A DNA stretch of 35,085 nt, taken from contig JAIKYR010000012.1 in NCBI GenBank assembly GCA_024682995.1, positions 1-35,085 of the forward strand, in the 5' to 3' direction. The DNA is from Bacteroidales bacterium. Its GTDB lineage: Bacteria > Bacteroidota > Bacteroidia > Bacteroidales > WCHB1-69. This document shows, one piece after another, positions 2,565 through 20,398 of this stretch; the stretch's first letter is position 1; each line of letters starts with the position of its first letter. Both the position numbers and the translations under genes were made by a program. Below the pieces are notes generated by a model. The model worked only from the letters and a program-made list of their open reading frames with translations, did no database searches and was not told the DNA's origin.

Positions 2565-2572
2565 TATCTTTG
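2565..2572 (+). promoter_or_regulatory. Probable -7 element of the phosphonate/glycan operon promoter
   Basis: TATCTTTG matches the Bacteroidota TAnnTTTG consensus, about 70 bases before the ATG of the PEP mutase gene. No good TTTG -33 element is visible at the usual distance. It is the only convincing promoter before the six-gene run that ends at 8918. Confidence 0.55.
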
Positions 2573-2643
2573 CAGCGGTAAAAACCTCCTTGAATTATCA
2601 GAGGCTGACGCGAAGAAAAAAAGAAAATAGAAAAAATAATAAT

Positions 2644-3960
2644 ATGGGAAAAAATAAAACGGTTTATGTCGGCATGAGTGCGGACATGATTCATCCAGGG
2701 CACCTTAACATTATTAAGGAGGCTGCAAAATTAGGAACGGTAACAGTAGGTGTGTTGACAGACGCTGCTATTGCCAGTTACAAAAGGTTGCCGTATCTTA
2801 CGTATGAGCAACGTGCCGAAATAGTGTCCAATATCAAAGGGGTTGATAAAGTTGTTCCGCAAACGACGCTGGATTATGTCCCGAATTTACGTGAATTAAA
2901 ACCTGATTTTGTAGTTCACGGAGATGATTGGAAAGAGGGTGTGCAGGCTAAAACTCGTCAACGGATTATTGAAGCAATGGCTGAATGGGGTGGTAAGGTG
3001 ATTGATATTCCATACACCCAAGGAATATCTTCTACTGCCATGAATCAGCACCTTAAAGAGATTGGTACCACTCCTGAAATTCGTCTCAAAAGACTTCGCC
3101 GTCTCATTAACGCTAAGAAAATTGTTCGTATTTTGGAATCCCACAACGGACTTACTGGTTTGATTATTGAGAACACCTTTGTTGAAGTGAACGGTGTAAA
3201 GCAAGAATTTGACGGCATGTGGGCCAGTTCCTTGACCGATTCCACTTCTAAAGGGAAACCCGATATCGAAGCGGTGGATATCACAACACGCCTTCATGAT
3301 TTGAATGATGCGCTGGAAGTGACCACAAAACCTATCATTTTCGATGGTGACACGGGTGGAAAGATCGAGCATTTTGTTTTTACCGTAAGAACATTGGAGA
3401 GATTAGGTATTTCTGCTGTCATTATTGAGGATAAAGTGGGGCTGAAACAGAACTCCTTGTTCGGAACGGATGCTGTTCAAACACAAGACACCATTGAAGG
3501 ATTCTGTTCCAAAATCAAAGCCGGCAAAAACGCACAAATCACGGAGGATTTCATGGTTATCTCCAGAATTGAGTCTTTGATTGCTGGAAAACCTGTGGAT
3601 GACGCCCTCGAACGGGCATTTGCATACGTGGCCGCTGGTGCGGACGGTGTCATGATTCACAGCAAAAACAAAGATGGGCAGGATATCAAGGAGTTCTGTA
3701 CGAGGTTCCGTCAACAAAATACAACAACGCCGATAATTGCAGTTCCAACCACATACAATCAGTTTACAGAAGATGAATTGGCTTCTTGGGGCATCAATGT
3801 GGTTATCTATGCCAACCACATGCTCAGAAGTGCCTATCCCGCCATGGTCAATTGCGCGAAGTCCATCTTGTCTCATCAACGGAGTTTGGAGGCTTCCGAA
3901 GAATATTGTATGCCCATCAAGGAAATTCTTGAACTCATTCCTGGAACTAAAAAGAAATAA
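2644..3960 (+). CDS. aepX: Cytidylyltransferase-phosphoenolpyruvate mutase fusion
   Basis: The product (438 aa) would convert phosphoenolpyruvate to phosphonopyruvate, the step that forms the C-P bond in nearly all known phosphonate pathways. Residues 1-135 are a nucleotidyltransferase fold with the HPGH motif at 17-20. Residues ~160-438 are the isocitrate-lyase-like mutase, with DGDTGG and the mutase signature [10 protein letters not shown] at 262-271. That signature separates PEP mutases from related lyases. ATG 2644 is chosen because the motif-bearing fold begins there; a longer TTG start at 2590 would add a basic, low-complexity leader. The next gene follows after 2 bases. N-terminal cytidylyltransferase fusions are known in phosphonate-glycan clusters, where they probably activate the phosphonate as a CMP derivative. 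Function of the mutase half is secure; the nucleotide used by the N-terminal half is inferred. Confidence 0.93.
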
Positions 3961-3962
3961 CC

Positions 3963-5090
3963 ATGCTGAGTCCAAAATTTTTCATTGACACCTTAGGTAA
4001 TAACGGCATTAACTTCTTTGCGGGAGTACCTGATTCATTGTTGAAAAACATCTGTGCCTATATTGCTGATAACTTGGATGATAAACACAATATCATTACA
4101 GCCAACGAGGGTGCGGCCGTTGCTTTAGCTGCTGGATATCATTTGGCCACAGGAAAAGTAGGTTGTGTCTATATGCAGAACTCCGGTGAGGGCAATGCAG
4201 TCAATCCGCTAGCTTCCTTGACAGACAAAGAGGTCTATCACATTCCTGTGCTGCTGTTAATCGGTTGGCGCGGCCGTCCTGGCATCCACGATGAACCGCA
4301 ACATGTCAAACAGGGGAAAATCACCACGGGTTTGCTGAACGTATTGGGCATCAACTACGAAGTTCTCAATAAAGAAGAAGATTTCGCCAAACGGCAGATT
4401 GACAAAGCTATCAATAGCATCCGAACCACAGGTGAAGCATTCGCGTTGGTTGTCGAAAAAGACACGTTTGACAGTTATACGCTCCAAAATGTCGTCAAAA
4501 ACGATTTGACCTTGGCTCGTGAGGAAGCTGTGCAGATGGTGGCTAAATCACTGGGAGAAAACGATGTGGTTGTCTCCACCACAGGGATGATTTCCAGAGA
4601 GCTCTTCGAATATCGTGAAGCGGCCGGAGAAGGCCATCACCGCGATTTCCTGACTGTCGGCTCGATGGGACATGCTTCGCAGATTGCCCTCGGCATCGCT
4701 CTGCAAAAACCTGATCGCAACATTTTCTGCTTCGAAGGCGACGGTGCCGTCCTCATGCATACGGGGTCCATGGCTGTCACCGCGTCCAAAAAGCCCGGCA
4801 ATTTCTATCACGTAGTGTTCAACAACGGGGCGCACGATTCTGTCGGCGGCCAACCCACAGTGGCATTGGACATCGATTTGCCGGCCATCGCCAAGGCGGT
4901 AGGGTATCTTTCCGTTTTCTCTATTGACAATGAGAACGATTTGGCGCAGTTGCTTCCGAAAATCACCTCTTTCCCCGCTCCCGTTTTTCTTGAAATCAAG
5001 GTCAAGAAAGGCAACCGCAAAGACTTGGGCCGCCCGACTACCACGCCGATCCAGAACAAGGAAGCGCTGATGGACTTTCTCCGCAAATAA
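3963..5090 (+). CDS. aepY: Phosphonopyruvate decarboxylase
   Basis: This 375-aa protein is a thiamine-diphosphate enzyme that makes phosphonoacetaldehyde from phosphonopyruvate and so pulls the unfavourable PEP mutase reaction forward. Visible features are the cofactor-activating glutamate in ANEGAAVALAAG (E49), the substrate-side GxRGxPGxxDEPQH region near residues 100-115, and the ThDP/Mg motif beginning GDG at 259-261 and ending NN at 287-288. The length is usual for this short decarboxylase family, which lacks the central domain of pyruvate decarboxylases. The ATG lies 2 bases after the mutase stop, so translation is probably coupled. Sulfopyruvate decarboxylase is the nearest alternative, but the neighbouring PEP mutase decides for phosphonopyruvate. 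Confidence 0.93.
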   Translation: MLSPKFFIDTLGNNGINFFAGVPDSLLKNICAYIADNLDDKHNIITANEGAAVALAAGYHLATGKVGCVYMQNSGEGNAVNPLASLTDKEVYHIPVLLLIGWRGRPGIHDEPQHVKQGKITTGLLNVLGINYEVLNKEEDFAKRQIDKAINSIRTTGEAFALVVEKDTFDSYTLQNVVKNDLTLAREEAVQMVAKSLGENDVVVSTTGMISRELFEYREAAGEGHHRDFLTVGSMGHASQIALGIALQKPDRNIFCFEGDGAVLMHTGSMAVTASKKPGNFYHVVFNNGAHDSVGGQPTVALDIDLPAIAKAVGYLSVFSIDNENDLAQLLPKITSFPAPVFLEIKVKKGNRKDLGRPTTTPIQNKEALMDFLRK

Positions 5091-5114
5091 CGCTATGCCA
5101 AAAACCGATAACCG

Positions 5115-6221
5115 ATGATACTGAATAGGATGACGAAGCAAAAGATACTGGCAGGGGCTCAAAATATAGAGTTGGCACTGAAGGAGATAAACAGTCGGAA
5201 CTATATGCTGGTTTGCGATTCATCATTCCCGTTTCTTCCGATAAAGGATATGTTCCGTACAGATGTGTTCTTCAACCAGTTTTCATCCAATCCGTTGTAT
5301 GAAGATGTGTGCAAGGGGGTGGAACTGTTCAATGCCAACCGTTGTGACACCATCGTGGCGGTAGGAGGCGGAAGCACCATCGATGTGGCCAAATGTATCA
5401 AACTTTACTGCAAGATGGATCCTGACCGGAATTATCTTCAGCAGGAATATACAGATAGCGGGATACCGCTCATCGCTGTGCCCACGACAGCCGGTACGGG
5501 GAGCGAAAGCACCCGCTATGCCGTCATCTATTTTGAAGGCAAAAAGCAGTCGGTGACCCATGATAGCATTATTCCCAACTATGCCATTCTGGAACCGAAG
5601 CTTCTCAAGTCATTGCCGCTTTACCAAAAGAAATGCACCATGTTGGATGCGCTTTGTCAGGGAATTGAGTCGATGTGGAGTGTGAACAGCACAGAGGAAA
5701 GTATGATTTTCAGCAAGATTGCCATTGATTTGATTATGCAACATTGGCATGGGTATATCGAGGAGAACAGCGAAGAAGATGCCGAATTCATCATGCAGGC
5801 TGCCAACTATGCGGGCAGGGCCATCAACATCACTCAAACCACCGCACCTCATGCGATGAGCTATAAACTTACTTCCATGTATGCTTTGCCGCACGGGCAT
5901 GCTGTTGCGCTTTGTCTGCCTGAGGTTTGGATGTATATGTTGGAACATCCTGAAAAATGCATTGATCCAAGAGGCAAAGAACATTTGGAATTTATTTTCG
6001 AGTGGTTGGGGAAAATCATGGGCTGCGACTCGCCTTATAAAGGTTTAATGATGTTTCGTGCTATGATTTTCTCTTTGGACATGCCTAAACCTGAAAGCAA
6101 GAATCGCGACGCAGAACTGGATATCCTTACCAAGTCTGTTAATCCAGAGCGGTTAAAGAATAATCCTGTGGCACTAGATGATTTTGTAATACATTGTATT
6201 TACAATAAAATAGTACTATGA
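5115..6221 (+). CDS. Iron-type alcohol dehydrogenase, probable phosphonoacetaldehyde reductase
   Basis: The 368-aa product belongs to the group III (iron-dependent) alcohol dehydrogenase family. It has the dinucleotide-binding GGGSTID at 84-90 and metal-site residues D178, H246 and H260, the last in PHGHA. From context it should reduce phosphonoacetaldehyde, made by the preceding decarboxylase, to 2-hydroxyethylphosphonate, as PhpC-type enzymes do. No aminotransferase is present that would divert the pathway to 2-aminoethylphosphonate. The position four residues after the metal aspartate, normally His, is Gln182 here (DALCQ). This may be a subfamily trait, but I cannot check it. The gene starts 24 bases after the previous stop and overlaps the next gene by 4 bases (ATGA). 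The reductase class is firm; the exact substrate is inferred from neighbours. Confidence 0.83.
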   Translation: MILNRMTKQKILAGAQNIELALKEINSRNYMLVCDSSFPFLPIKDMFRTDVFFNQFSSNPLYEDVCKGVELFNANRCDTIVAVGGGSTIDVAKCIKLYCKMDPDRNYLQQEYTDSGIPLIAVPTTAGTGSESTRYAVIYFEGKKQSVTHDSIIPNYAILEPKLLKSLPLYQKKCTMLDALCQGIESMWSVNSTEESMIFSKIAIDLIMQHWHGYIEENSEEDAEFIMQAANYAGRAINITQTTAPHAMSYKLTSMYALPHGHAVALCLPEVWMYMLEHPEKCIDPRGKEHLEFIFEWLGKIMGCDSPYKGLMMFRAMIFSLDMPKPESKNRDAELDILTKSVNPERLKNNPVALDDFVIHCIYNKIVL

Positions 6222-7036
6222 AAGAACTATCCATTGCAGAATTAAAACAACTTCAACTTGAAATTCTGTTGGTTATAGATGAGTTTTGCAGAAAGAATAG
6301 GATTGAATACTTCCTTGATTTTGGTTCTGCACTCGGTGCTGTTCGTCACGGTGGATATATCCCATGGGACGATGACATTGACATTGGCATGACACGTTCT
6401 AATTACGAACGTTTTGTTCATTCCTTTAATGGTTATAAAAATCATTTACAACTCTTCGCTCCCGAACTTGATTTGGATTACTATGCGACGTATGCGAATG
6501 TATGTGACAAGAGAACCTTATTGAATGAAGGTGCAAATGGACACCGAGGTTTTGAGATGGGTGTTAAAATTGATGTGTTCCCTATAGATGGTACCTCTTC
6601 TAACATGAAATTGTGTCTCCAACAACACAAATTCTTACGCATAATAATAAATATTATGTCAAGGAAACGAAGAATAATGTCTGATGTTTGGAAAGTTGAT
6701 AAAATTAAATTTTGTACTTGTTTAATTGTTCGTATTTTTACTTTTTTTGTTAGTTACCGAAATATGCAACGACTAGTTCGGTATCTTGCATTAAAACATT
6801 CATTTGAAAATAGTAAATATGCTGGCGATATTGTTAATCCTGCATATAGTAAACCTGCAATATGTTGCCGAGAAGTATTTGAAGAATGTATGGATATTTT
6901 ATTTGAGGGTAATAATGTTAGAATTCTTAAACGGTATGACGATTATTTGAAAGCCATCTATGGAGACTATATGCAACTCCCTCCTGAGTCTGAACGGGTA
7001 GGTCATCATGGTTTCACTGCTTATTGGAAAGACTGA
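6218..7036 (+). CDS. LicD-family phosphotransferase
   Basis: This 272-aa protein carries the LicD nucleotidyltransferase-fold core: GSALGAVRHGG at 36-46 and PWDDDIDIG at 49-57, which supply the Gly-Ser and metal-binding aspartates. LicD proteins transfer phosphocholine or similar phospho-groups from CDP-activated donors to glycans. Directly behind three phosphonate genes, with a 4-base ATGA overlap to the reductase, it is the obvious candidate to attach hydroxyethylphosphonate to a sugar, using the CMP derivative made by the cytidylyltransferase domain of the first gene. The central part (about 6600-6850) is very AT-rich and carries a hydrophobic stretch near residues 165-180. Attachment of another group such as phosphocholine is possible, but no choline genes are seen. 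Confidence 0.85.
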   Translation: MKELSIAELKQLQLEILLVIDEFCRKNRIEYFLDFGSALGAVRHGGYIPWDDDIDIGMTRSNYERFVHSFNGYKNHLQLFAPELDLDYYATYANVCDKRTLLNEGANGHRGFEMGVKIDVFPIDGTSSNMKLCLQQHKFLRIIINIMSRKRRIMSDVWKVDKIKFCTCLIVRIFTFFVSYRNMQRLVRYLALKHSFENSKYAGDIVNPAYSKPAICCREVFEECMDILFEGNNVRILKRYDDYLKAIYGDYMQLPPESERVGHHGFTAYWKD

Positions 7037-7038
7037 TT

Positions 7039-8199
7039 ATGAAAAAAATACTGCTTGTTTTTGGCACACGGCCAGAGGCCATTAAAATGTGCCCGTTGGT
7101 AAAAGAATTTCAGAAATATCCAGCTGAAATAGAAACAGTTGTATGCGTTACCGGTCAACATCGGGAAATGTTGGATCAGGTGCTGCATATTTTTGATGTT
7201 GTGCCAGATTTTGATCTTAATATTATGAAGCAAGGTCAAGATCTTTATGATGTCACCTATCGCGTTCTGACAGGAATGAGAGATATTTTACAAAATGTCA
7301 AACCCGATGTGGTTTTGGTTCATGGTGATACCACAACTTCCATGGCAGCAGCACTGGCATCGTTCTATCAGCAGATTCCGGTTGGACATGTGGAAGCTGG
7401 TCTTCGGACGCACAATTTATATAGTCCTTGGCCTGAAGAATTGAATAGACAAGTCACAGGTAGAATTGCAATGTTCAACTTCTCTCCAACCAAGCTCAGT
7501 CATGACAATTTGGTTGCCGAAAATGTCCCTGAGAATCATATTTATATTACAGGAAATACGGTTATTGATGCCTTGCATGTTGTTGTAAACAAAATCAAAA
7601 GCAGTCCTCAAGTTTCATCTGAATTATCTCAATTGCTGCTCAAGTCGGGATATGACACCGAGAGATTATCCAATGGTAAAAAATTAGTTCTTATCACGGG
7701 ACATCGTAGAGAAAACTTCGGCGAAGGCTTCATCAATATGTGTACTGCCATCAAGGATTTAACGAAAAAGTATCCAGAAGTCGATTTTGTTTACCCTATG
7801 CATCTGAATCCGAACGTGCGTAGGCCTATTCATGAGGTATTTGGTGAAGATTTAAGTCATCTTGACAATATGTTTTTCATCGAACCTTTGGAATATTTAA
7901 GTTTTGTGTTCTTGATGGACAAGTCATATCTTGTTTTAACCGACAGTGGTGGTATTCAGGAAGAGGCACCCGGATTAGGAAAACCCGTACTTGTTATGCG
8001 TGACACTACTGAACGTCCAGAAGCCGTTGAAGCTGGGACGGTGAAATTAGTGGGAACTGATTATTCTTTAATCGTAAGTGAAACAACACGATTACTTAAT
8101 GATTCCACGTATTATAATAGTATGTCACAGGCCGTTAATCCTTATGGGGATGGTCATGCTTGTGAAAGAATAGTGAATATTTTAAAACAAACGCTATGA
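7039..8199 (+). CDS. wecB: UDP-N-acetylglucosamine 2-epimerase (non-hydrolysing)
   Basis: The product (386 aa) interconverts UDP-GlcNAc and UDP-ManNAc, supplying ManNAc or its derivatives for surface glycans. Family marks run in order: FGTRPEAIKM near the N-terminus, HGDTTTS, HVEAGLRT, the HRREN segment near the middle, and DSGGIQEEAP near residue 315 for UDP binding. ATG 7039 is preferred over the TTG at 7024 because it gives the standard MKKILLVFGTRPE start and lies 2 bases after the licD stop. The next gene overlaps by 4 bases. No UDP-ManNAc dehydrogenase is seen in the window, so ManNAc itself or a modification made elsewhere may be the final sugar. Confidence 0.94.
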   Translation: MKKILLVFGTRPEAIKMCPLVKEFQKYPAEIETVVCVTGQHREMLDQVLHIFDVVPDFDLNIMKQGQDLYDVTYRVLTGMRDILQNVKPDVVLVHGDTTTSMAAALASFYQQIPVGHVEAGLRTHNLYSPWPEELNRQVTGRIAMFNFSPTKLSHDNLVAENVPENHIYITGNTVIDALHVVVNKIKSSPQVSSELSQLLLKSGYDTERLSNGKKLVLITGHRRENFGEGFINMCTAIKDLTKKYPEVDFVYPMHLNPNVRRPIHEVFGEDLSHLDNMFFIEPLEYLSFVFLMDKSYLVLTDSGGIQEEAPGLGKPVLVMRDTTERPEAVEAGTVKLVGTDYSLIVSETTRLLNDSTYYNSMSQAVNPYGDGHACERIVNILKQTL

Positions 8200-8918
8200 T
8201 TCCCAAAATCATCCATTATTGTTGGTTCGGAGGAAATCCATTGCCCGAATTGGCCATTAAATGTATAGAAAGTTGGAAAAAATTCTGTCCAGACTATGAA
8301 ATCATGGAATGGAATGAGAAGAACTTTGATTTGCATTATAATGACTACGTTTGGGAGGCCTATCAGGCAAGAAAATGGGCTTTCATTACAGATGTTGTCA
8401 GATTGTATGCACTGACACAATATGGTGGGGTTTATATGGATACCGATGTGGAAGTGATTAAGCCATTAGACCCATATCTTGATCATGTAGCTTTTAGTGG
8501 TTATGAAAATGAACATGAAATACCCACAGGTATCATGGCTAGTGAAAAAGGAGGAAAATGGGCGATGGACAACCTGCATTATTATGACAACAAACATTTT
8601 TTAAATCAAGACGGAACTTTTGATATGACAACAAATGTTGTTACTCTTACGAATTATATGCTTCCTCTTGGTTTGAAACAAAATAACACGTATCAGGATT
8701 TTCCCGGATTAATAACCTTCTATCCCAAAGATTTTTTCTGCCCAAAATCATATTTGGACGGAAAGATTTATCTGACAGAAAACACGGTCACAATACATCA
8801 TTTTGCGGGCAGCTGGCGCTCCACATCAAGCAAAATCAAACATAAGATTATGAAATTATTGGGACCTAGAATTTGTGGATGGTGGGAGAGTATGAAACAA
8901 ACTGTCAGAAGCAAGTAG
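8196..8918 (+). CDS. GT32-like glycosyltransferase (DXD sugar-binding type)
   Basis: The 240-aa protein begins MIPKIIHYCWFGG, the typical opening of capsular-polysaccharide transferases with the DXD sugar-binding region. The key segment FITDVVRLYALTQYGG is followed by YMDTDVEV, which holds the DXD metal/nucleotide-sugar motif. These enzymes add one sugar to a growing lipid-linked repeat at the cytoplasmic face of the inner membrane. Donor and acceptor cannot be read from sequence. The start overlaps the wecB stop (ATGA). It is the last gene of the + strand operon; beyond it come the convergent ORF6N cassettes. Base composition is low in G+C, as in licD and wecB, unlike the glycan genes after 17930. 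Confidence 0.87.
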   Translation: MIPKIIHYCWFGGNPLPELAIKCIESWKKFCPDYEIMEWNEKNFDLHYNDYVWEAYQARKWAFITDVVRLYALTQYGGVYMDTDVEVIKPLDPYLDHVAFSGYENEHEIPTGIMASEKGGKWAMDNLHYYDNKHFLNQDGTFDMTTNVVTLTNYMLPLGLKQNNTYQDFPGLITFYPKDFFCPKSYLDGKIYLTENTVTIHHFAGSWRSTSSKIKHKIMKLLGPRICGWWESMKQTVRSK

Positions 8919-8940
8919 GATTATTCCCCTCTCTCCCCCC

Positions 8941-8983
8941 CCTTCGTCACATTCCACCGGAACTGGATCAGCTTCCAGCCGCG
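8941..8983 (+). repeat. Direct repeat copy 1 (outer boundary of ORF6N cassette 1)
   Basis: About 43 bp starting ccttcgtcacattcc and ending ccagccgcg. It matches the 3' coding end of the GT2 glycosyltransferase gene at 11281-11324 and a further copy at 10119-10161. Here it is a detached fragment between the GT32-like gene and the first ORF6N gene. Confidence 0.9.
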
Positions 8984-9064
8984 ATTGCTTCTATGAGGTT
9001 CCGTTTGGCGCGTCCGCCCTCGCGAGCCTTAGTCCGCTGTTGCCGTCAATAATTGCTTTGGCGA

Positions 9065-10003
9065 TTACTTCAAAAACGACAACACCATCTCGGGAGTGAA
9101 ATCAACTTTAATGACAGTACAGAGCCCGTGGCCCATGTCTTTCACGGAGGCTCCGAGTAACCACACCTCATCGTCAATAATCAGGTAGCGGTCGTGGATG
9201 TGTAGTGAAAGCTGGATTTTCTTGATCTCTGCATTCTGCTCGTTATGTTTCTCAAAGTCCAATTCCGTCTGCTTGCTGAAGCGGGTATGGACAGTACATT
9301 CAACGCCAGCGGCTCGCTTGTCGAGCAAGAACAGGGTGCGCTCATCAACAAAGTTGTCAATAAGGATAATTCGGTGCTTTGCACGTCTCACCAGGCTGCT
9401 TAAGAAAGAGTAGGCATCCCAAACGCAGCCTGTGCCAAACAATTCTTCGGTTATTATTGCGGGCGAAAGTTCCTCAATCTTGTCTAACACCACGTCAAGT
9501 TTCTTGTCCGTTTCTATCTGCTTTCGTTCCAATGCGCCTACGCGTTGAAATAGTCCGGCGTTGGAGGTGATAAAACGGCGCATCGCCACAAAGGCATCCA
9601 TAATTCTCACGCTCGCTTCTTCTGCCACATCAGAATGAAGCACGGCACTTAACTGTGCGACACCTTGCTCTGTAAAAGCATAAGGGCATCTTCTCGCCCC
9701 CATCTTCAATGCATCAATCTCTTCCTGTGAGTAAATATTGGAGGTCACAATTTGTGACTTCCAATGCTCAAACTCTTCCTTCGTCAACTGAAACATAAAT
9801 CGCTCAGGGAAGCGTCTGATGTTACGTTTTACGGCCTGATTTAACGCCTTTGTTGCCACATGATATAGAATGGCCAAATCCCTATCCAGCATCACTTGGA
9901 CGCCTCGGACCATAAATATTCTGGCTTGTATCTCTGCAAGCGATACAGGCTGATTGTCGTGAAGCACAACGGCTTTTGTTTCATTTGTTCGATTTTCTTT
10001 CAT
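9065..10003 (-). CDS. ORF6N-domain protein with PLD-like C-terminus, copy A
   Basis: The 312-aa protein has an N-terminal ORF6N domain (residues ~20-140; VMLDRDLAILYHV, then RRFPERFMFQL and AFTEQGVAQLSAVL). This is a presumed DNA-binding domain first seen in phage and viral proteins. A short coiled-coil-like segment follows (ERKQIETDKKLDVVLDKIEEL, ~160-180), then a C-terminal domain with HDRYLIID near residue 270. That resembles the HxKx4D motif of phospholipase D-like enzymes, but arginine replaces the lysine. A related arrangement is common in Bacteroidota accessory DNA; its role is not settled. From residue ~139 to the end it is almost identical to copy B, while residues ~25-138 differ strongly. 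The - strand promoter lies in a conserved AT-rich palindrome just upstream. Confidence 0.85.
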   Translation of the reverse strand: MKENRTNETKAVVLHDNQPVSLAEIQARIFMVRGVQVMLDRDLAILYHVATKALNQAVKRNIRRFPERFMFQLTKEEFEHWKSQIVTSNIYSQEEIDALKMGARRCPYAFTEQGVAQLSAVLHSDVAEEASVRIMDAFVAMRRFITSNAGLFQRVGALERKQIETDKKLDVVLDKIEELSPAIITEELFGTGCVWDAYSFLSSLVRRAKHRIILIDNFVDERTLFLLDKRAAGVECTVHTRFSKQTELDFEKHNEQNAEIKKIQLSLHIHDRYLIIDDEVWLLGASVKDMGHGLCTVIKVDFTPEMVLSFLK

Positions 10004-10006
10004 AGC

Positions 10007-10068
10007 GCAAAAGTATAATTTTAATTTTATATAAAAAAGATTTTTCTATATAAAAAATTAACTTTTGC
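10007..10068 (-). promoter_or_regulatory. AT-rich inverted repeat and promoter upstream of ORF6N copy A
   Basis: The 62 bp run from gcaaaagt to its exact reverse complement acttttgc and enclose an imperfect palindrome centred near 10040 (tatataaaaaa opposite ttttctatata). On the - strand TACTTTTG (complement of 10008-10015) fits the -7 consensus, a few bases before the ATG. The same element occurs before copy B. It may be an operator for autoregulation or an element end. Confidence 0.6.
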
Positions 10069-10118
10069 TTCAAACTAATGTAGTCAACAGCTGACAACAA
10101 ACTATTTCCCCACCAACA

Positions 10119-10161
10119 CCCTCGTCACATTCCACCGGAACTGGATCAGTTTCCAGCCGCG
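10119..10161 (+). repeat. Direct repeat copy 2 (junction between the two ORF6N cassettes)
   Basis: A second copy of the GT2 3'-end sequence, ccctcgtcac through ccagccgcg. The sequence to its left (about 10080-10118) also matches the stop-codon region of the real GT2 gene. The 81 bp to its right (10162-10242) match 8984-9064. It joins cassette A to cassette B. Confidence 0.9.
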
Positions 10162-10242
10162 ATTGCTTCTATGAGGTTCCGTTTGGCGCGTCCGCCCTCG
10201 CGAGCCTTAGTCCGCTGTTGCCGTCAATAATTGCTTCGGCGA

Positions 10243-11166
10243 TTACTTCAAAAACGACAACACCATCTCGGGAGTGAAATCAACTTTAATGACAGTACAG
10301 AGCCCGTGGCCCATGTCTTTCACGGAGGCTCCGAGTAACCACACCTCATCGTCAATAATCAGGTAGCGGTCATGAATATGCAGTGGAAGCTGGATCTTCC
10401 TGATTTCGGCATTTTGCTTGTTATGTTTCTCAAAGTCCAATTCCGTCTGCTTGCTGAAGCGGGTATGGATAGTGCATTCAACGCCAGCGGCTCGTTTGTC
10501 AAGCAAGAGCAACGTGCGCTCATCCACGAAGTTGTCAATAAGGATAATTCGGTGCTTTGCACGTCTCACCAGGTCGCTCAAGAAGGTGTAGGCATCCCAC
10601 ACGCAGCCTGTGCCAAACAATTCTTCGGTTATTATTGCGGGCGAAAGTTCCTCAATCTTGTCTAACACCACGTCAAGTTTCTTGTCCGTTTCTATCTGCT
10701 TTCGTTCCAATGCGCCTACGCGTTGAAACAGTCCGGCGTTGGCGGTGATAAAACGGCGCATCGCCACAAAGGCACGCATGATGGAGATACTCACGTCGGC
10801 AGCTCTTTGGCTCTTGAGCACGGTGGCCAGCATGGCAACGCCCTGCTCTGTGAAGGCAAACATATCAGTGCCGCCAGTGTTGTAGCCAGGGGGTATCACA
10901 GTTTGTGACACCCCACTGGAAATCAATTGATTAGACTCGTCCTCAGATAATCGAAGCATAAAATCTTCGGGAAATTTGGCCGGATTTCGGCGTACGGCCT
11001 GCTTCAATGCACGGTTTTCCACGCCGTAAAGCAACGCCAAATCGCGGTCAATCATCACCTGCATATTTCTTACAGTGTAGATTCTGGCTTGTATCTCTGC
11101 AAGAAACACAGGCTGATTGTCGTGTATCACAACGACTTTTGTTTCATTTGTTCGATTCTCTTTCAT
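10243..11166 (-). CDS. ORF6N-domain protein with PLD-like C-terminus, copy B
   Basis: The 307-aa paralogue of copy A has the same layout: ORF6N domain (VMIDRDLALLYGV, KFPEDFMLRL, AFTEQGVAMLATVL), coiled-coil-like linker, and C-terminal domain with HDRYLIID and LGASVKDMG. The last ~170 residues differ from copy A at only about eight positions, and the first ~24 are also close. The ORF6N core between them is only about half identical. The mosaic suggests that duplication was followed by exchange or fast divergence of the DNA-recognition part while the C-terminal part and flanks stayed uniform. The start codon is followed by the same MKENRTNETK opening as copy A. Function is unknown; a regulator or phage-response role is a guess from the domain. 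Confidence 0.85.
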   Translation of the reverse strand: MKENRTNETKVVVIHDNQPVFLAEIQARIYTVRNMQVMIDRDLALLYGVENRALKQAVRRNPAKFPEDFMLRLSEDESNQLISSGVSQTVIPPGYNTGGTDMFAFTEQGVAMLATVLKSQRAADVSISIMRAFVAMRRFITANAGLFQRVGALERKQIETDKKLDVVLDKIEELSPAIITEELFGTGCVWDAYTFLSDLVRRAKHRIILIDNFVDERTLLLLDKRAAGVECTIHTRFSKQTELDFEKHNKQNAEIRKIQLPLHIHDRYLIIDDEVWLLGASVKDMGHGLCTVIKVDFTPEMVLSFLK

Positions 11167-11169
11167 GGT

Positions 11170-11231
11170 GCAAAAGTATAATTTTAATTTTATATAAAAA
11201 AGATTTTTCTATATAAAAAATTAACTTTTGC
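11170..11231 (-). promoter_or_regulatory. AT-rich inverted repeat and promoter upstream of ORF6N copy B
   Basis: Nearly identical to the element at 10007-10068, with arms gcaaaagt and acttttgc and the same inner palindrome. TACTTTTG on the - strand (complement of 11171-11178) is the likely -7 element. The element lies between the GT2 stop codon and the copy B start. Confidence 0.6.
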
Positions 11232-11264
11232 TTTAAACTAATGTAGTCAACAGCTGACAACAAA

Positions 11265-12167
11265 CTATTTCCCCACCAACCCCTTCGTCACATTCCACCG
11301 GAACTGGATCAGCTTCCAGCCGCGCTTCGGCGCACCTGCGAGCGTGTGCCCGACGCACAGCACAATAGAGGCCGCCCACTTGATTGCCTCTGACACGAGC
11401 CGCTTCACATATTTCCCCTTCCCAATATTCAATGTACGCATGCGTTCGCTCTTGCCGATGGAGTACGTCAGTCGGTCAAAATAGTCCTTGCTGAGCTTCT
11501 TCTCGGGGATAAGATGGTAGAGGATGGCCGTCGGGAGATAGTAGAAGCGCATTCCCAACGTTGTCATCTTGTCAAAAATATCCTTTTCTTCTGCCCCCAC
11601 CAGGCTGTCGCCCTTGCGGCCCAATTCCACGTTGAACAGACCCACTTTCTCAAAAACGGAAGCGCGGTAGGCTGCATTGCCGCCGCCGGGATAATCGTTT
11701 TTTGGAAACTCTTTTGCCTTATCACCCAAATACTTATATCCCGTAATCAGTGCTTTGGTAAAATGCGACATCCAAGCAGGTTCCTCGGTCTCGTATTGGG
11801 GGATAATCGGACCGCCGGCGGCCTCAATGTCCGGATGTTGTTCGAAAAAGTCGGCGTAGGTTTGCAGATACTCCTTATTGACTAATGCGTCGTCGTCCAC
11901 ATACACCAAAATATCCCCTTTGCTTTCCTTTATGCCCCGGTTGCGGGCGTGAGAGAGCCCTTGATTGGTTTCCACGAAGTAGCGGAATGTCACCTCGGGG
12001 AAATCCTTGACAAAACGGTCGCACTCGCTGTGCGTGTTGTCCGTACAGTTATTGTCCACGAGCACTATTTCGTACCGGTCAGGCGACAACTTGTTTTCGG
12101 CAAGGCTTTTCAGTACGTTATAGATGTACTTGTCGCGGTTATAGGTGCAGAGGATGACGGAGAGCAT
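11265..12167 (-). CDS. GT2-family glycosyltransferase
   Basis: The 300-aa protein has the family 2 (GT-A fold) pattern: MLSVILCTYNRDKYI at the N-terminus, LVDNNCTDNT near residue 36, NQGLSHARNRGI near 69, the metal-binding YVDDDA near 90, and GGGNAAYRASVFEKVG near 160. A likely catalytic acidic cluster, GAEEKDIF, follows near 190. It would add a sugar from a nucleotide donor to the lipid-linked glycan. A hydrophobic amphipathic stretch near 260-275 may hold it at the membrane. It lies 4 bases after the AlbA_2 gene on the - strand and is probably co-transcribed with it. Its 3' end (11281-11324) is the source of the direct repeats that bound the two ORF6N cassettes. Confidence 0.9.
   Translation of the reverse strand: MLSVILCTYNRDKYIYNVLKSLAENKLSPDRYEIVLVDNNCTDNTHSECDRFVKDFPEVTFRYFVETNQGLSHARNRGIKESKGDILVYVDDDALVNKEYLQTYADFFEQHPDIEAAGGPIIPQYETEEPAWMSHFTKALITGYKYLGDKAKEFPKNDYPGGGNAAYRASVFEKVGLFNVELGRKGDSLVGAEEKDIFDKMTTLGMRFYYLPTAILYHLIPEKKLSKDYFDRLTYSIGKSERMRTLNIGKGKYVKRLVSEAIKWAASIVLCVGHTLAGAPKRGWKLIQFRWNVTKGLVGK
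11281..11324 (-). repeat. Direct repeat copy 3 (parental copy inside GT2 gene 3' end)
   Basis: This is the original site: the sequence encodes part of the C-terminus of the GT2 glycosyltransferase (GWKLIQFRWNVTKG). Similarity to the other two copies stops at ccagccgcg; beyond it the GT2 reading frame continues, while the other copies run into the 81-bp cassette segment. Confidence 0.88.
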
Positions 12168-12171
12168 AATA

Positions 12172-13662
12172 TTAGGGATTAGTTCGTAGATATTCTTGGA
12201 GTTGCAGGCCTTTTTCGGTCAGCCGGTATTTCTGGGTGGGGCTATTCGGGGATTGGGGCTGGGTTTTCTCAATGAGAGTAAGTCGTAAGGCTTTGTTAAG
12301 AATATTCTGGTTAAAATGACTGTAATTGTTCAATTGCAGTATCTTCATTAGCTCAACCCTGGAACATTCACCATCCATAACCTTAATCATTTTTTGAAGC
12401 GTTGAACTTAAGTTCGAGAGCAATTGTTGGGAGGGTATTTTATTATCCGTTACTTGTGTGGTTACTTGTGTGGTTACTTGTGTGGTGTTTGCGCTTGCTT
12501 GTGTGGTATTCTGGCGTTGGATAACCACAGAGAACTGGTTCGCCGATTCGTTATCCACAAACGACATCTTTGCCCCCTCGTTCAAGGCACGAATTATCCC
12601 AGATCCCAAACCCCTGAAAATCATCGTTTTTCTACAAAATTCCGCAATTAGAGGATTTCGCTGATATGTTGCACCCGCTTTAATGTCTTCCACCGTCAGG
12701 TGGCCACCCAAGCAACCTGGACTGATGATTTCAACCCTGTCTTCAAATATGAGCAAACGAATGGCTGCAGGCCACAAATAATCACGGTGAACCAATGCAT
12801 TTTGCAATATTTCTTCTAACGCTATCTCAGAAATCTCCAAAATGCCAATGGAGTTGAAATTCTGTCCGTTTTGCAGACTGTGCAAATTTGATTTGAGGAA
12901 AGACATGCCTTGCTCGAACATCTCTGGAATCGTGCCGTCTATGTCTTTGCTATCCCGATATTGTGTTCCTCCAATGGAATTTCCATAAAAGGAGACAGCC
13001 TTAATCACAAATTGAGGCACGAACATCTGAGGTTCCCGTCCGAAAAACAGTAATCCCGCTAAAGTTAATTCACCATTAGCATTGATGATATGAAGATTTC
13101 GCAAAAGCCGGTCTTTGGGAACATCAATGGCATCGACCGGTCTCCCGTATGTTCTATTGAAGAATCGGTCTAACGCCTGAGTGTCAATGTCTTTTAGAGA
13201 CGTGTCAGGAACCCCTTGTAATTCTGGAAAATATTGTTGAGATTGTTGGAAGAGCCCTAATAGTTCTGCATTTTCCGTGATTCTTCGCTTATCAGAACCC
13301 TGTTTAATCCAAATTTGCCCTGTCAGATCCTTATAGGGCTTATTAATCCCTTCTTGGACAGTAACTGCCAATACGTGCTTTTCTTGAATCTTCACTACTT
13401 CTGTCTGCACATAGATAACAGGGCGAATCTGGTCATTTGCTAATGTGCTGATAACATGTGACAACTGCTGAATCTGCTCGAATGACAATCCGATTATTTG
13501 TGCAGTTTTGTCATCAATTCCAAATAAAAGAACACCTCCTTTGCTGTTGGAGAAAGCGACCAATTCTTCGGCAATTTGTTTGTTGGAAGTAAATTGCCGT
13601 TTGAACTGCACAGTGCTAGTTTCACCGCACAAGATAATTTCCTGTAATTGGTCAGCTGTCAT
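12172..13662 (-). CDS. AlbA_2 (Schlafen-like) ATP-binding protein, full length
   Basis: The 496-aa protein carries an N-terminal AlbA_2 domain (residues ~5-125; TVQFKRQF, then EELVAFSNSKGGVLLFGIDD), which in Schlafen-like proteins is linked to nucleic-acid binding or cleavage. A GHKL-like ATPase region follows (EILQNALVHRDY near 290, ISPG, then RGLGSGI near 350). Then come a TTQV repeat linker and a C-terminal winged helix (~425-490). This is the intact counterpart of the truncated gene at 398-1651. Such genes are frequent in Bacteroidota accessory regions and are often annotated as transcriptional regulators; defence roles are suspected for some. It lies between YfhO (24 bases upstream) and GT2 (4 bases downstream), so it may be read with the glycan genes. 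Its substrate is unknown. Confidence 0.85.
   Translation of the reverse strand: MTADQLQEIILCGETSTVQFKRQFTSNKQIAEELVAFSNSKGGVLLFGIDDKTAQIIGLSFEQIQQLSHVISTLANDQIRPVIYVQTEVVKIQEKHVLAVTVQEGINKPYKDLTGQIWIKQGSDKRRITENAELLGLFQQSQQYFPELQGVPDTSLKDIDTQALDRFFNRTYGRPVDAIDVPKDRLLRNLHIINANGELTLAGLLFFGREPQMFVPQFVIKAVSFYGNSIGGTQYRDSKDIDGTIPEMFEQGMSFLKSNLHSLQNGQNFNSIGILEISEIALEEILQNALVHRDYLWPAAIRLLIFEDRVEIISPGCLGGHLTVEDIKAGATYQRNPLIAEFCRKTMIFRGLGSGIIRALNEGAKMSFVDNESANQFSVVIQRQNTTQASANTTQVTTQVTTQVTDNKIPSQQLLSNLSSTLQKMIKVMDGECSRVELMKILQLNNYSHFNQNILNKALRLTLIEKTQPQSPNSPTQKYRLTEKGLQLQEYLRTNP
12450..12485 (-). repeat. 12-bp in-frame tandem repeat encoding TTQV
   Basis: Three perfect copies of a 12-bp unit (ttacttgtgtgg on the + strand) encode the TTQVTTQVTTQV linker, with a partial extra unit near 12500. 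The repeat joins the ATPase region to the winged helix. Copy-number change would keep the frame. Confidence 0.92.
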
Positions 13663-13686
13663 AGTGGGAAAATAGTGTAAGATGTA

Positions 13687-16179
13687 TTACTGTATTTCAC
13701 CTTTGTTGAAGCATTCTTTTTTCCCTTTCCGATAATACACCACCAAACTTCCCGCCAGGGCCAAAACAAACAGGATGGAGCAGATCACGGTGACCTTGTC
13801 CAGCTTGTGCATTAGTGGAGCTTCATTCTTGAACTCAATCTTGTGTTCGCCGGCGGGAATCACCATGGCGCGCAGGATGTAGTCGGCGCGGAAGTAGTCG
13901 GCCGGTTTGCCGTCGATGTAAGCGCGCCAGTCGGGGGCGTAATAGACTTCGGAGAAGACCGCCAACTGGTCCTTTGACGTCTTGGTCTTATATACCACAT
14001 AGTCCGGATTATAGGGCTTCTGATGTTCCATTACGATAACGGAATTGCTATCACGTTCCAGGTTTTTGCCCTGTACCATTGAAGCAAATCGTTTGTCGAT
14101 AATGGCTGTGTCTGCCGGATTGAAGTCGTTCAACGATAAGATTTCAGCATTAGGATCCTCCACCAATTGGTATGTGTCCACAAACCAGGCGTTACCCAAA
14201 GCCTCGGGGTTTCGCTGCACGATCGCCTGTCCATTCTGTCCGGGAACGACCACATAGCGGGCATTCAGCATGTTGAGCACATCGGTGTTTATATGGCGGG
14301 ACAGGTAGAAATCGATAAGGTCTTGATAACGGCGCAATTTGGCTGCGTTATAACCGCCAATCTGATGGTGGAAGGCGGAGGGGTAGGAGTCGTTGAAGGT
14401 GTTGACCGACAAGTCGAACACCCGGTAATCTTCATCGTTGAATTGGGCGGCATACTGATCCAGCGTCTGGTCGGTCTGCGAAGGTCTCAGTTTGGTTCGT
14501 TTTTCAGTTATGAAATTGGATTCGTTGAGGTAGCGACGGTCCACGCCCCAGAGGTCGAACAGCACCAGACATGTCAAAACGCCAATGATGATGCCGGACT
14601 GTTTGATTTTCTGATTGATGTAGAGCCACAAGAAGAGGGCGGAAATCAGGATCAGAATCAGCGAACGCCAGGAATCCGACATGAAGAGAGCCTTACGGTC
14701 TTTAATCAGCACATCCTGAATCATATCCCACTGGTTGCCATATTGCGCGGCCATCTGCACGTCGCTCACCCCAGAGAAGGAGAAACCACTGGAAACGACC
14801 ATCATCAGCAAAATAAAACCTACGGAGATGCCCGTGGAGATATAGAGTCCGAGATTCAGCTTTTTCTTGTCAATGGGATTCTCTTTGTCGAAAATAGCCT
14901 TCAGTGCCAGAATTGCCATAAAAATCATGGTCACATTCGCGATGACCAGGCTCATAGAAGGGGTGCGGAATTTGTTGTAAAGCGGAAGATGGTAGAACAG
15001 GAAGCTGTTGAATCCCATCAGATTTTTTCCCCATGACATGAGAATGGCCAAAATAGTGGCGAGAAGGATCCACCAGCGTTCGGGACCTTTCACCACAAAC
15101 ATACCCAACACGAACAGGAAGACGATGATGGCACCGAAATATACCGGGCCGGAGGTGAAGGGCTGGTCGCCCCAGTAGAGCGGTGCCTGTTTTTGACGGA
15201 AGTTCTTATAGAATTCGGAATCGGTGCCGACCATTTCGGCTGAGCCGCCGCCGTACGCACCGGGTACGAGCAGTGTGTAGGTCTCACCTTTGCCATAGCT
15301 CCAGCTGTAGGCGTAATCAATATCCAGGCCATTAGAGGCGGCGATGGATTTGGGCTCGCCATCTTTGTACAGGTCTTCGGGGGTTACTGTGATTTCGGAG
15401 CCGCCACGCATGGTGTATTTCACATACTCTTGATTGATGAACAGCAGACGGGCGTTGGCACCAACGGCAAATCCGACCCCAATCAGCATGACACCAACCC
15501 CTATTAACAGGGACTTAATTGCTTTGTCTTTAATGGCATAGACCAGATAGACAAGGCCAAGGATAAGAGCAATAAGCATGGTGTAATAGGTGATCTGGAT
15601 ATGGTTGCAGGCAATTTGGAGGCCCAATGCAACAGCAAAAAGAATGCCTCCCCAAAGATAATTTTTCCGTTGAAGGATTAAAAGCATACCGCCCAAAATA
15701 GGAGCGATCATGGACAAGGCCTGTGCCTTAGTGTTGTGACCGGCTTCAATAATGATGATATTGTAGCTCCCCAAACCAAAAGCCAAAGCACCCAAAAGAC
15801 TCAGCCAAGGAGAAAGCCCCAGTGCTAATAATGCAACATAAAACCCCAGCATATAAAGGAATAGGATACCAATGTTGCCTCCATAACCGAGATGGTATAG
15901 GAGGAAAACGCTTTTTATCTTACTAAAAACGGACTTGGAGGGCGGAGTGGTTACCTGATAGGATGGCATACCGCTAAACATGGAGCTGGTCCATGTGGTG
16001 TATTCGCCTGTTTTTTCTTGATAATCAACTTGTTCCTTGGACATGGCTTTCCATTTCAGGATATCTCCTTGTTGGATGACCTTGCCGTCGAAGGCGGGGG
16101 ACATATAGATGGCGGCCACCAGGAAGAAGAAGAGGACGATGCCGCAGTGGATTAAAGTTTTCTTGAGGACAGGTTTCAT
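13687..16179 (-). CDS. YfhO-family multi-spanning membrane protein
   Basis: The 830-aa protein opens with a membrane segment (residues ~9-27) followed by a periplasmic loop with the family-type IQQGDILKWK and SSMFSGMPSYQV stretches. About ten to twelve more transmembrane helices follow to residue ~560. A soluble periplasmic domain (~575-790) contains NMLNARYVVVPG and the conserved EVYYAPDWRAYIDG, and a last helix ends near 820. YfhO proteins are GT-C-like; the Gram-positive members glycosylate lipoteichoic acid, while Bacteroidota members lack a proven role. In this setting transfer of a sugar from a lipid carrier on the periplasmic side is plausible. The promoter is at 16214-16221 and the gene is the first of the - strand unit ending with GT2. 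Family call firm, function inferred. Confidence 0.88.
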   Translation of the reverse strand: MKPVLKKTLIHCGIVLFFFLVAAIYMSPAFDGKVIQQGDILKWKAMSKEQVDYQEKTGEYTTWTSSMFSGMPSYQVTTPPSKSVFSKIKSVFLLYHLGYGGNIGILFLYMLGFYVALLALGLSPWLSLLGALAFGLGSYNIIIIEAGHNTKAQALSMIAPILGGMLLILQRKNYLWGGILFAVALGLQIACNHIQITYYTMLIALILGLVYLVYAIKDKAIKSLLIGVGVMLIGVGFAVGANARLLFINQEYVKYTMRGGSEITVTPEDLYKDGEPKSIAASNGLDIDYAYSWSYGKGETYTLLVPGAYGGGSAEMVGTDSEFYKNFRQKQAPLYWGDQPFTSGPVYFGAIIVFLFVLGMFVVKGPERWWILLATILAILMSWGKNLMGFNSFLFYHLPLYNKFRTPSMSLVIANVTMIFMAILALKAIFDKENPIDKKKLNLGLYISTGISVGFILLMMVVSSGFSFSGVSDVQMAAQYGNQWDMIQDVLIKDRKALFMSDSWRSLILILISALFLWLYINQKIKQSGIIIGVLTCLVLFDLWGVDRRYLNESNFITEKRTKLRPSQTDQTLDQYAAQFNDEDYRVFDLSVNTFNDSYPSAFHHQIGGYNAAKLRRYQDLIDFYLSRHINTDVLNMLNARYVVVPGQNGQAIVQRNPEALGNAWFVDTYQLVEDPNAEILSLNDFNPADTAIIDKRFASMVQGKNLERDSNSVIVMEHQKPYNPDYVVYKTKTSKDQLAVFSEVYYAPDWRAYIDGKPADYFRADYILRAMVIPAGEHKIEFKNEAPLMHKLDKVTVICSILFVLALAGSLVVYYRKGKKECFNKGEIQ

Positions 16180-17929: not shown

Positions 17930-19051
17930 ATGAAAATCATCATTCTTGGAACCGCATACCCCTACCGCGGAGGGCTCTCCGCCTTCAACGAACGCATCGC
18001 CTACGAGTTTCAAAGTCAGGGACACGAGGTGGAAATCTACACCTTCACCCACCAATACCCAGATTTTCTGTTTCCTGGTAAAACCCAATACAGCACAGAA
18101 CCCGCGCCCGAAGGGCTGAAAATTGTACGCAAGGTACATTCCTACAACCCGTTCAACTGGATTAAGGTGGGACGCGAGATCAAGCGCAAGAGACCCGACT
18201 TGATGATCACCAAGTTCTGGCTTCCCTTCATGGCGCCCTGCTTCGGCACCATCGCACGCATCGTGCGCAAGAACAAACACACCCGACAGGTCTCCATCCT
18301 CGACAATGTCATCCCGCACGAGCACCGTCCCGGCGACAAGATGTTTGTGCGCTATTTCATCCGCCCCACCGACGGCTTCGTGGCCATGTCGAAGTCGGTG
18401 CTTGCCGACCTGAGACTGTTCACGACCGACAAACCCGCCGTCTTCAGCCCGCACCCGCTGTACGACCACTACGGGGAACGCTTAACACGAGAAGAGGCCC
18501 TTTCAATGCTGAATCTCAGTCCAGAGAATCGCTACGTGCTCTTCTTCGGGTTCATCCGCGGCTACAAGGGACTGGATCTGTTGCTGGATGCTTTCGCCGA
18601 CAATCGGCTGAAGGAGGCAGGAGTGAAGTTATTGGTTGCCGGCGAGTTTTACGGCGACCCCGAACCTTATCTCAAGCAAATCAAAGACTTGCAGATAGAA
18701 GACCGTGTAGTGCTCTGCACCGACTTCATCCCCGACAGCGAGGTAAACCGCTACTTCAGCGCGGCCGATATCGTGGCTCAGCCCTACAAGACCGCCACGC
18801 AAAGCGGTGTCACCCAAATCGCTTTTCACTTTGAAAAACCGATGCTGGTAACCAATGTGGGTGGTCTGCCGGAAATTGTTCCAGACGGCAAAATCGGCTA
18901 TGTCGTTGAACCCGATTCGAAGCAGATCGCTGATGCGCTGTGCCGTTTCTTCGCCGAAAACAAGCAGGCAGAATTTGAAGCCAACGTGGTAGAAGAGAAG
19001 AAAAAATATGCGTGGCCGAAATTCATCGAGGCGATTTGGGAGGTCTGTTAA
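17930..19051 (+). CDS. GT4-family glycosyltransferase
   Basis: The 373-aa protein has the GT-B layout. The N-terminal domain starts MKIIILGTAYPYRGGLSAFNE, with the Gly-Gly donor-side loop. The C-terminal domain contains FFGFIRGYKGLDLLLDAF (~205-222), LVAGEFYG and SAADIVAQPYKTATQSGV near 275-295. This last stretch replaces the usual glutamate motif region of GT4 and is followed by VTNVGGLPEIVPDG. It is probably an inverting or retaining sugar transferase acting on a lipid-linked glycan; donor unknown. It is the first gene after the promoter at 17883-17911. Its base composition is clearly richer in G+C than the phosphonate operon, similar to the following heptose genes. Confidence 0.88.
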   Translation: MKIIILGTAYPYRGGLSAFNERIAYEFQSQGHEVEIYTFTHQYPDFLFPGKTQYSTEPAPEGLKIVRKVHSYNPFNWIKVGREIKRKRPDLMITKFWLPFMAPCFGTIARIVRKNKHTRQVSILDNVIPHEHRPGDKMFVRYFIRPTDGFVAMSKSVLADLRLFTTDKPAVFSPHPLYDHYGERLTREEALSMLNLSPENRYVLFFGFIRGYKGLDLLLDAFADNRLKEAGVKLLVAGEFYGDPEPYLKQIKDLQIEDRVVLCTDFIPDSEVNRYFSAADIVAQPYKTATQSGVTQIAFHFEKPMLVTNVGGLPEIVPDGKIGYVVEPDSKQIADALCRFFAENKQAEFEANVVEEKKKYAWPKFIEAIWEVC

Positions 19052-19093
19052 AATCAGATCGTTGTAATCATGCCGCCAATTCAATATTTTTTA

Positions 19094-19161
19094 TACCTTT
19101 GCGCTCCTGATTTTTTATGAAAATCTGGAGTAAAACTCCTAAAAAAACAGAAAAATCAGGA
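19094..19161 (+). promoter_or_regulatory. Promoter element followed by a long-range inverted repeat
   Basis: TACCTTTG at 19094-19101 fits the -7 consensus. Almost at the expected start of transcription, TCCTGATTTTT (19105-19115) pairs perfectly with AAAAATCAGGA (19151-19161). Inside the loop a small GGAG/CTCC stem (19127-19139) can form. The RNA leader would therefore begin with a nested hairpin. It could be an attenuator, a 5'-end stabiliser or the relic of a small element. Downstream lie a decayed ATPase and hddA. Confidence 0.5.
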
Positions 19162-19194
19162 ATATAGATTATAGCTATTCTCATATAATCAATT

Positions 19195-19323: not shown

Positions 19324-19329
19324 GCAACT

Positions 19330-20352: not shown

Positions 20353-20356
20353 GATT

Positions 20357-20398
20357 CCCCTTCTATGTAGAAGGGGTGCCCGCAGGGTGGGGTAGTAG
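20357..20398. repeat. REP-like palindromic intergenic element
   Basis: CCCCTTCTA and TAGAAGGGG (20357-20365 and 20368-20376) form a 9-bp stem with a 2-base gap, followed by a G-rich tail tgcccgcagggtggggtag. I recall similar palindrome-plus-tail units between genes in many Bacteroidota genomes. There is no T-run, so it is not a typical terminator, although it may affect RNA stability between hddA and the next gene. Confidence 0.6.

Follow-up and report, generated by a model that had tools for sequence, protein, structure and literature searches.

Closest described systems and the predicted phosphonate operon

According to Rice et al. 2019 (PMC6697681), the N-terminal domain of Fom1 moves cytidine monophosphate (CMP) onto 2-hydroxyethylphosphonate (HEP), yielding CMP-HEP in fosfomycin synthesis, and the phosphonyl tailoring (Pnt) clusters encode phosphoenolpyruvate (PEP) mutases fused to a PF01467 or a PF12804 domain. 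The same source reports fusions to other domains, mainly nucleotidyltransferases, for 59.5% of PEP mutases, and puts PF01467 fusions at 23.6%. Here we describe an operon that starts with such a fusion gene in a 35,085-nucleotide stretch of DNA from a Bacteroidales bacterium (positions 1 to 35,085 of contig JAIKYR010000012.1, assembly GCA_024682995.1), referred to below as the window. With a probability that we put at roughly 0.8, it is a cassette for the supply of CMP-HEP within a surface-glycan operon, in which a LicD-family protein would pass HEP to a sugar.

The fusion and the predicted steps are those by which Fom1, Fom2 and FomC lead from PEP to CMP-HEP in Streptomyces fosfomycin synthesis; the sequence comparison covered the Fom1 domain only. 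Unlike the fosfomycin pathway, the operon is without Fom3 or later genes and has genes for LicD, an epimerase and a glycosyltransferase. With the Pnt clusters, as presented in PMC6697681, it shares the PF01467-PEP mutase fusion, nucleotidyl activation, a LicD-like gene and the glycan context, and its PEP mutase, nucleotidyltransferase and CDP-group transferase in a glycan locus are the combination that marks Pnt surface tailoring. The characterised Pnt clusters make 2-aminoethylphosphonate (AEP) by means of an aminotransferase and PF12804 enzymes, and the two PntC enzymes characterised by Rice et al. are of the PF12804 type and favour AEP, whereas the window encodes a reductase and a PF01467 domain (PMC6697681).

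A locus in Segatella copri DSM 18205 (L154, on a 167-kb plasmid record) contains aepX, aepY and an annotated phosphonoacetaldehyde reductase that is 55.5% identical to the one in the window, together with glycan genes for a CDP-glycerol glycerophosphotransferase family protein, an O-antigen polymerase, a flippase and glycosyltransferases. Unlike the protein of the window, its PEP mutase (7287-9296) is a triple fusion of PF12804, PF01467 and PEP mutase domains. HEP-bearing phosphonoglycans reportedly occur in the actinomycetes Glycomyces and Stackebrandtia, which would represent the same kind of surface chemistry in different hosts.

The operon comprises six genes in tight series on the plus strand, from 2644 to 8918 (Table 1), and the spacings among the first four are 2 bp, 24 or 39 bp (there being two possible reductase starts) and a 4-bp overlap. 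A first-pass annotation of this DNA had described an operon of four genes at 2644-7036, for a PEP mutase, a phosphonopyruvate decarboxylase (Ppd), an iron-type reductase and a LicD transferase. Reading frames and family models confirmed these genes and their placement on one strand, but the series does not stop at 7036, as the epimerase and glycosyltransferase genes follow directly. For the first two steps, curated models establish the enzyme families, in agreement with the earlier PEP mutase and Ppd calls, and the LicD call was borne out by PF04991 and the DDDID motif. Calling the first gene a PEP mutase was correct but left out its N-terminal cytidylyltransferase domain of the Fom1 type. The PEP mutase, Ppd and the epimerase score above the curated NCBIfam cut-offs, and the PF01467 domain, the dehydrogenase, LicD and the glycosyltransferase above those of Pfam. 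Activity-type motifs are all present in the operon proteins (HPGH, EDKxxxxxNS, GDG...NN, DDDID and the metal ligands D/Q/H/H).

In the proposed pathway, the PEP mutase half of the fusion protein would convert PEP to phosphonopyruvate, Ppd would decarboxylate this to phosphonoacetaldehyde and the metal-dependent reductase would convert the aldehyde to HEP. The cytidylyltransferase half would then join HEP and CTP to CMP-HEP, from which LicD would place the HEP group on a sugar as a phosphonate ester. We infer the product, the linkage and the LicD step from sequence.

Table 1. Positions of the phosphonate operon genes, their domains and a promoter-like element in the window
Feature	Position	Strand	Evidence
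-7-like promoter element TATCTTTGC	2565..2573	+	70 bases 5' of first start codon
Cytidylyltransferase/PEP mutase fusion gene	2644-3960	+	PF01467 and TIGR02320
N-terminal cytidylyltransferase domain (Fom1 type)	2644..3066	+	PF01467, 59.8 bits, over Pfam cut-off
PEP mutase domain of the fusion protein	3094..3960	+	TIGR02320, 413.9 bits (cut-off 319.55); EDKxxxxxNS at residue 262
Phosphonopyruvate decarboxylase (Ppd, AepY)	3963..5090	+	TIGR03297, 499.2 bits (cut-off 312.5); GDG...NN motif
Metal-dependent alcohol dehydrogenase, predicted phosphonoacetaldehyde reductase	5115..6221 (start 5115 or 5130)	+	PF00465/PF25137
LicD-family phosphotransferase (predicted HEP transfer from CMP-HEP to a glycan)	6218..7036	+	PF04991, 140.8 bits (cut-off 22.6); DDDID at residue 51
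UDP-GlcNAc 2-epimerase (WecB), same operon	7039..8199	+	TIGR00236, 512.5 bits, over curated cut-off
Glycosyltransferase with DXD sugar-binding region, same operon	8196..8918	+	PF04488, 65.6 bits, over Pfam cut-off

The fused cytidylyltransferase domain and its association with the reductase

The cytidylyltransferase domain carries the motifs HPGH (residue 17), AIASYK (42), HGDDW (92) and GISST (127). Its closest solved structure is the PDB entry 5x3d (66% identity over 135 residues, E 3.9e-60), which is named phosphoenolpyruvate phosphomutase and which we take to be the cytidylyltransferase domain of Fom1. By sequence, the protein as a whole qualifies as a Fom1-type fusion, with an intact HxGH in the N-terminal PF01467 domain and EDKxxxxxNS in the C-terminal PEP mutase.

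PEP mutase loci were gathered regardless of their neighbours from samples of the phylum (found in 10 of 395 genomes), the order (19 of 393), the window's own family (8 of 104) and the family of genome G143 (10 of 92), the window's own genome being counted in the first three. A class-level sample of 395 genomes contained a PEP mutase in one, which was again the window's own genome. The 18 loci fetched from the order sample comprised 15 with the reductase, one with an aminotransferase, one cut by a contig end and one without a fused domain, while the 9 fetched from the phylum sample comprised two with the reductase, six with an aminotransferase (four with and two without the fused domain) and one with neither gene. 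A locus whose PEP mutase is cut by the contig end (L158) was left out of the fetched loci. Four PEP mutases without a fused domain (L039, L040, L041 and L059, the first two with an aminotransferase) were also left aside. The unbiased set that resulted has 34 loci, counting the window, and each carries a fused PF01467 domain.

Among these relatives the signature of the fused domain tracks the reductase and not the AEP aminotransferase. The Fom1-type motif AIASYK was present in 23 of the 34 loci, 22 of which have the reductase and none the aminotransferase; the lone locus with neither gene (L057) is cut by the end of a 3,179-base contig. Where the motif was missing (11 loci), the reductase was found once (L054), the aminotransferase six times and neither gene four times (Fisher p 1.5e-5 for the 29 loci with either gene, kinship not corrected for). 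Residues S12-A13 read SA in 22 of the 23 rows that have the reductase and in none of the 6 that have the aminotransferase, and Fom1 also has SA at these residues. The HxGH motif was intact in all 23 reductase loci. It was broken in 3 of the 10 loci that lack both AIASYK and the reductase, namely in one aminotransferase locus (L058, HPGI) and in two loci with neither gene (L066 and L069, both HPGL), and intact in the other 7, five of which have the aminotransferase and the signature HHGH; these HHGH domains may well activate AEP. A tree built from 116 cytidylyltransferase domains, of which 108 differ, was poorly resolved, with stars on 10 of its 105 inner branches. On it, the reductase label changed 6 times as compared to 14.4 times in shuffles, and twice when reductase and aminotransferase alone were considered.

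A reverse scan of GTDB genomes was keyed on D[KEA]AIASYK and [FY]VVHGDDW, and the best 80 of 509 confirmed loci, ranked by likeness to the window's protein, were kept. By tblastn, 77 of these 80 loci have the reductase on the same strand at a distance of at most 6.5 kb, and none has the aminotransferase; of the three loci with neither gene, two have less than 2 kb of contig left past the PEP mutase. These counts are independent of frame calling and were used instead of the blastp version, which gave 68 loci with the reductase, 10 others and 2 in which no PEP mutase frame was called. Because the scan shares at least 8 contigs with the unbiased set, neither count is independent of the other.

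The likely role of the fused domain, as suggested by its relatives and by the co-occurrence, is the activation of HEP. Because the domain is of the Fom1 kind and its signature tracks the reductase, the HEP reading is on firmer ground than in the first-pass annotation, where HEP was the predicted end product: that prediction is now backed by the Fom1-type domain, by its co-occurrence with the reductase and by the lack of an AEP aminotransferase over the cut-off in the 87.75%-complete assembly.

Some PEP mutase loci are organised differently. L069, from the window's genus, is 88% identical to the window's protein in the PEP mutase half and 53% in the cytidylyltransferase half; at 8506-13817 it shows the broken HxGH (HPGL), the PEP mutase and Ppd, then genes for a metallophosphoesterase and an NAD-dependent epimerase and a LicD-like gene. 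An initial assumption that PntC and an aminotransferase are encoded by the pair of genes past Ppd in L069 and in L066 was ruled out by the Pfam matches: in L069 the pair encodes a metallophosphoesterase and an epimerase, and the products in L066 are a DUF6564 protein and one that has no Pfam match. A genus-mate has a second PEP mutase locus (L071, G786:C31, 1051-6788) with the fused-domain signature HRGH and no adjoining decarboxylase. Its neighbours encode a metallophosphoesterase, a LicD-like protein, a DegT aminotransferase and an ATP-grasp-like protein, and this gene content suggests a phosphonate branch that departs at phosphonopyruvate.

The reductase and its predicted substrate

The metal ligands of the reductase are D173, Q177, H241 and H255 (numbering from the start at 5130), in line with the pattern of D, Q or H, H and H that we set for this analysis. 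The best NCBIfam match was to TIGR03405 (PsrA, phosphonate iron-dependent alcohol dehydrogenase) at 135.6 bits as compared to a cut-off of 423.7 bits, and the protein was therefore not filed as PsrA. The closest PDB sequence is 6jko, i.e. the sulfoacetaldehyde reductase BkTauF, an enzyme of a sulfonate pathway, unlike the phosphonate role predicted here. As described in PMC6616044, the zinc ligands of BkTauF are Asp192, Gln196, His261 and His275, with the Gln called atypical by the authors, and the substitutions T257A and F265A nearly abolish activity. The window's reductase is of the same enzyme family, has the same D/Q/H/H ligands and keeps the equivalent of Thr257, while Phe265 is replaced by Tyr. 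Since sulfoacetaldehyde is the sulfur counterpart of phosphonoacetaldehyde, the likeness supports the substrate class, short of proof.

In 95 reductase frames from the fetched loci (89 distinct), the D, H and H ligands, K139, T237 and Y245 were invariant, and the fourth ligand was Q in 77 and H in 18. An AlphaFold2 model of the window's protein was confident, with a mean predicted local distance difference test score of 92.9. In one locus (L108) a single open frame of 751 codons encodes the domain sets of both Ppd and the reductase, and this natural fusion ties the reductase to the product of the decarboxylase. The window's own assembly contains a single other match to the reductase at E 1e-10, with 27% identity. 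The relatives, the co-occurrence and the natural fusion thus point to phosphonoacetaldehyde as the probable substrate.

LicD and the proposed transfer step

LicD belongs to the Lic pathway, which puts phosphocholine from CDP-choline onto glycans (PMC6697681, as summarised there), and by this chemistry CMP-HEP would be a fitting donor. The transfer of HEP to a glycan by LicD is the weakest step of the pathway, suggested by the protein family and the operon context. In three reductase-type loci of the genus (L052, L067 and L068), the fusion halves are 96-99%, Ppd 93-96% and the reductase 81-82% identical to those of the window. The LicD protein is 45% identical in L052 and 31% in L068, and in L067 its gene does not adjoin the reductase gene; a LicD-like gene lies three genes past the reductase on the same contig (L073). 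Because the fusion protein, Ppd and the reductase are conserved while LicD varies within the genus, we read these loci as a constant supply module that would be combined with a swapped acceptor module.

In L043, a gene for a PF04464 transferase is followed by one (11698-14736) for a 1012-residue protein that contains a YidC/Oxa1 domain. This is one of a series of proteins of about 1000 residues encoded two genes past the reductase, with similar-sized ones in L046, L047, L048, L050 and L053. Those in L043, L046 and L050 had an N-terminal YidC/Oxa1 domain followed by about 780 residues without a match in the NCBIfam scan, and the proteins could possibly serve the export or assembly of a phosphonate polymer.

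Alternative readings

Several observations weigh against a CMP-HEP cassette with transfer by LicD. The earlier call of an iron-type reductase holds at the level of Pfam, where PF00465 and PF25137 exceed their cut-offs, but the protein matched 16 NCBIfam models without reaching the cut-off of any, BkTauF is only 34% identical over 218 aligned residues, and the pocket residue F252 is I in the window. PF01467 domains with an intact HxGH are also found at AEP aminotransferase loci (5 of 6), so that the domain alone does not prove HEP, and S. copri keeps the reductase though its PF01467 HxGH reads NSAH; there the PF12804 domain may replace the PF01467 domain. The transferase is variable: among the 69 scan loci in which a reductase frame was called (from the best 80 of 509), the gene after the reductase is LicD-like in 27 and PF04464-like in 9 (E 1e-6), and in the remaining 33 it is of another kind, has no match, lies on the opposite strand or would fall beyond the end of the contig. 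Neither transferase was found within 6.5 kb in 52 of 77 scan loci at E 1e-10. Finally, the window's own assembly is 87.75% complete, and the absence of an aminotransferase from it is therefore not proof.

The variation in the transferase would be accounted for if HEP and CMP-HEP were made but LicD moved another group, e.g. phosphocholine, with HEP reaching a lipid, a protein or another glycan through another transferase. LicD is the most variable member of the operon within the genus, next to fusion halves that hardly vary, and many of the scan loci show a PF04464-like gene or lack a recognised transferase. Such variability is, however, also expected of an acceptor-specific enzyme, models for choline kinases and transporters match none of the six operon genes, and the licD gene both overlaps the reductase gene by 4 bp in the window and directly follows it in the 27 scan loci, which makes this alternative unlikely in our view. 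Much less probable is AEP as the end product, made by an aminotransferase encoded elsewhere while the reductase serves some other purpose. According to PMC6697681, the known phosphonate of a Bacteroides fragilis capsular polysaccharide is AEP, and the incomplete assembly leaves room for such a gene; on the other hand, aminotransferase loci have a different cytidylyltransferase signature, and in L108 the reductase shares one open frame with Ppd. The window does not have the arrangement of an AEP biosynthesis cluster, with an AEP aminotransferase next to PEP mutase and Ppd, and the reference-set aminotransferases had no match in it. By the first-pass annotation, an aminotransferase elsewhere that gives AEP would speak against HEP; none was over the cut-off in the 87.75%-complete assembly (TIGR02326, 35.6 as compared to 400.8 bits; TIGR03301, 46.5 as compared to 360.8 bits). 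We hold it to be just as improbable that the pathway passes through HEP or CMP-HEP to a small phosphonate, further modified or secreted, of the fosfomycin or methylphosphonate kind. Both compounds are intermediates of such pathways as outlined in PMC8158854 and PMC8931226, but the operon goes on with LicD, the epimerase and the glycosyltransferase and contains no radical SAM methyltransferase or oxygenase, the search for which was confined to the operon.

Distribution of the cassette

The first-pass annotation had spoken of a distinct surface chemistry, and the rarity that this suggests did not survive the comparison: rarity of the reductase branch is ruled out by the 15 of 18 fetched order-sample loci that have the reductase, and the S. 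copri reductase was already annotated. Each step of the pathway is already known, the fusion has been counted in print and the reductase is named in public annotation. The literature searched, which lacked most subscription papers, yielded no account of HEP attached to a glycan of Bacteroidota. Relatives in the scan include metagenome-assembled genomes from water-buffalo reticulum, sheep rectum, roe-deer rumen and other sets, and the cassette is also present, among the matches listed, in records of Marinifilum, Ancylomarina, Lysobacter, Alteromonas, Paraglaciecola and Marinospirillum. Marinifilum sp. N1E240 and Ancylomarina sp. DW003 are two of these. No Ppd was seen in a Treponema locus, which was not counted as bearing the cassette.

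We lean slightly towards a broader proposal, in which CMP-HEP and not CMP-AEP would be the main activated phosphonate of phosphonate-making Bacteroidales, a barcode of S12/A13/AIASYK would separate HEP from AEP loci, the LicD or PF04464 acceptor enzyme would be freely swapped, and HEP-decorated glycans would be common in rumen and gut bacteria while unreported in the literature searched. If this is true, many rumen and gut Bacteroidales carry hydroxyethyl phosphonate on their surface, the barcode offers a way to tell from sequence whether a phosphonate locus belongs to HEP or to AEP, and the rumen may have an added source of C-P compounds. Since HEP is without the amine of the aminoethyl group of B. 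fragilis, the decoration would be anionic rather than zwitterionic. Charge pattern influences how such glycans meet host and phage.

Promoter-like element and other features of the window

The element upstream of the fusion gene matches TANNTTTG, which we take to be the -7 promoter element of Bacteroidota. The window contains 14 matches to TANNTTTGC, as compared to 5.17 expected (standard deviation 2.05). A two-part promoter pattern (-33 TTG, one spacing, at most one mismatch) had no match at 2565, and the element hints weakly that the phosphonate operon might have a promoter of its own there.

Two tandem genes for ORF6N-domain proteins are located at 9065-11166 on the minus strand. The C-terminal halves of the proteins are nearly identical and an identical stretch of 30 bases precedes each gene (10008-10037 and 11171-11200), which indicates a recent duplication. 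Open frames with TTG starts and the look of remnants lie at 437-2180; one has RecG-C and Fic-like C-terminal matches and no AlbA match, and another has a winged-helix match. A second glycan block at 17930-25197 encodes a glycosyltransferase, a GHMP kinase, a nucleotidyltransferase and a SIS-domain protein, with further frames that are phosphomannomutase-like by appearance and flippase-like with no Pfam match; this gene set resembles a GDP-heptose route.

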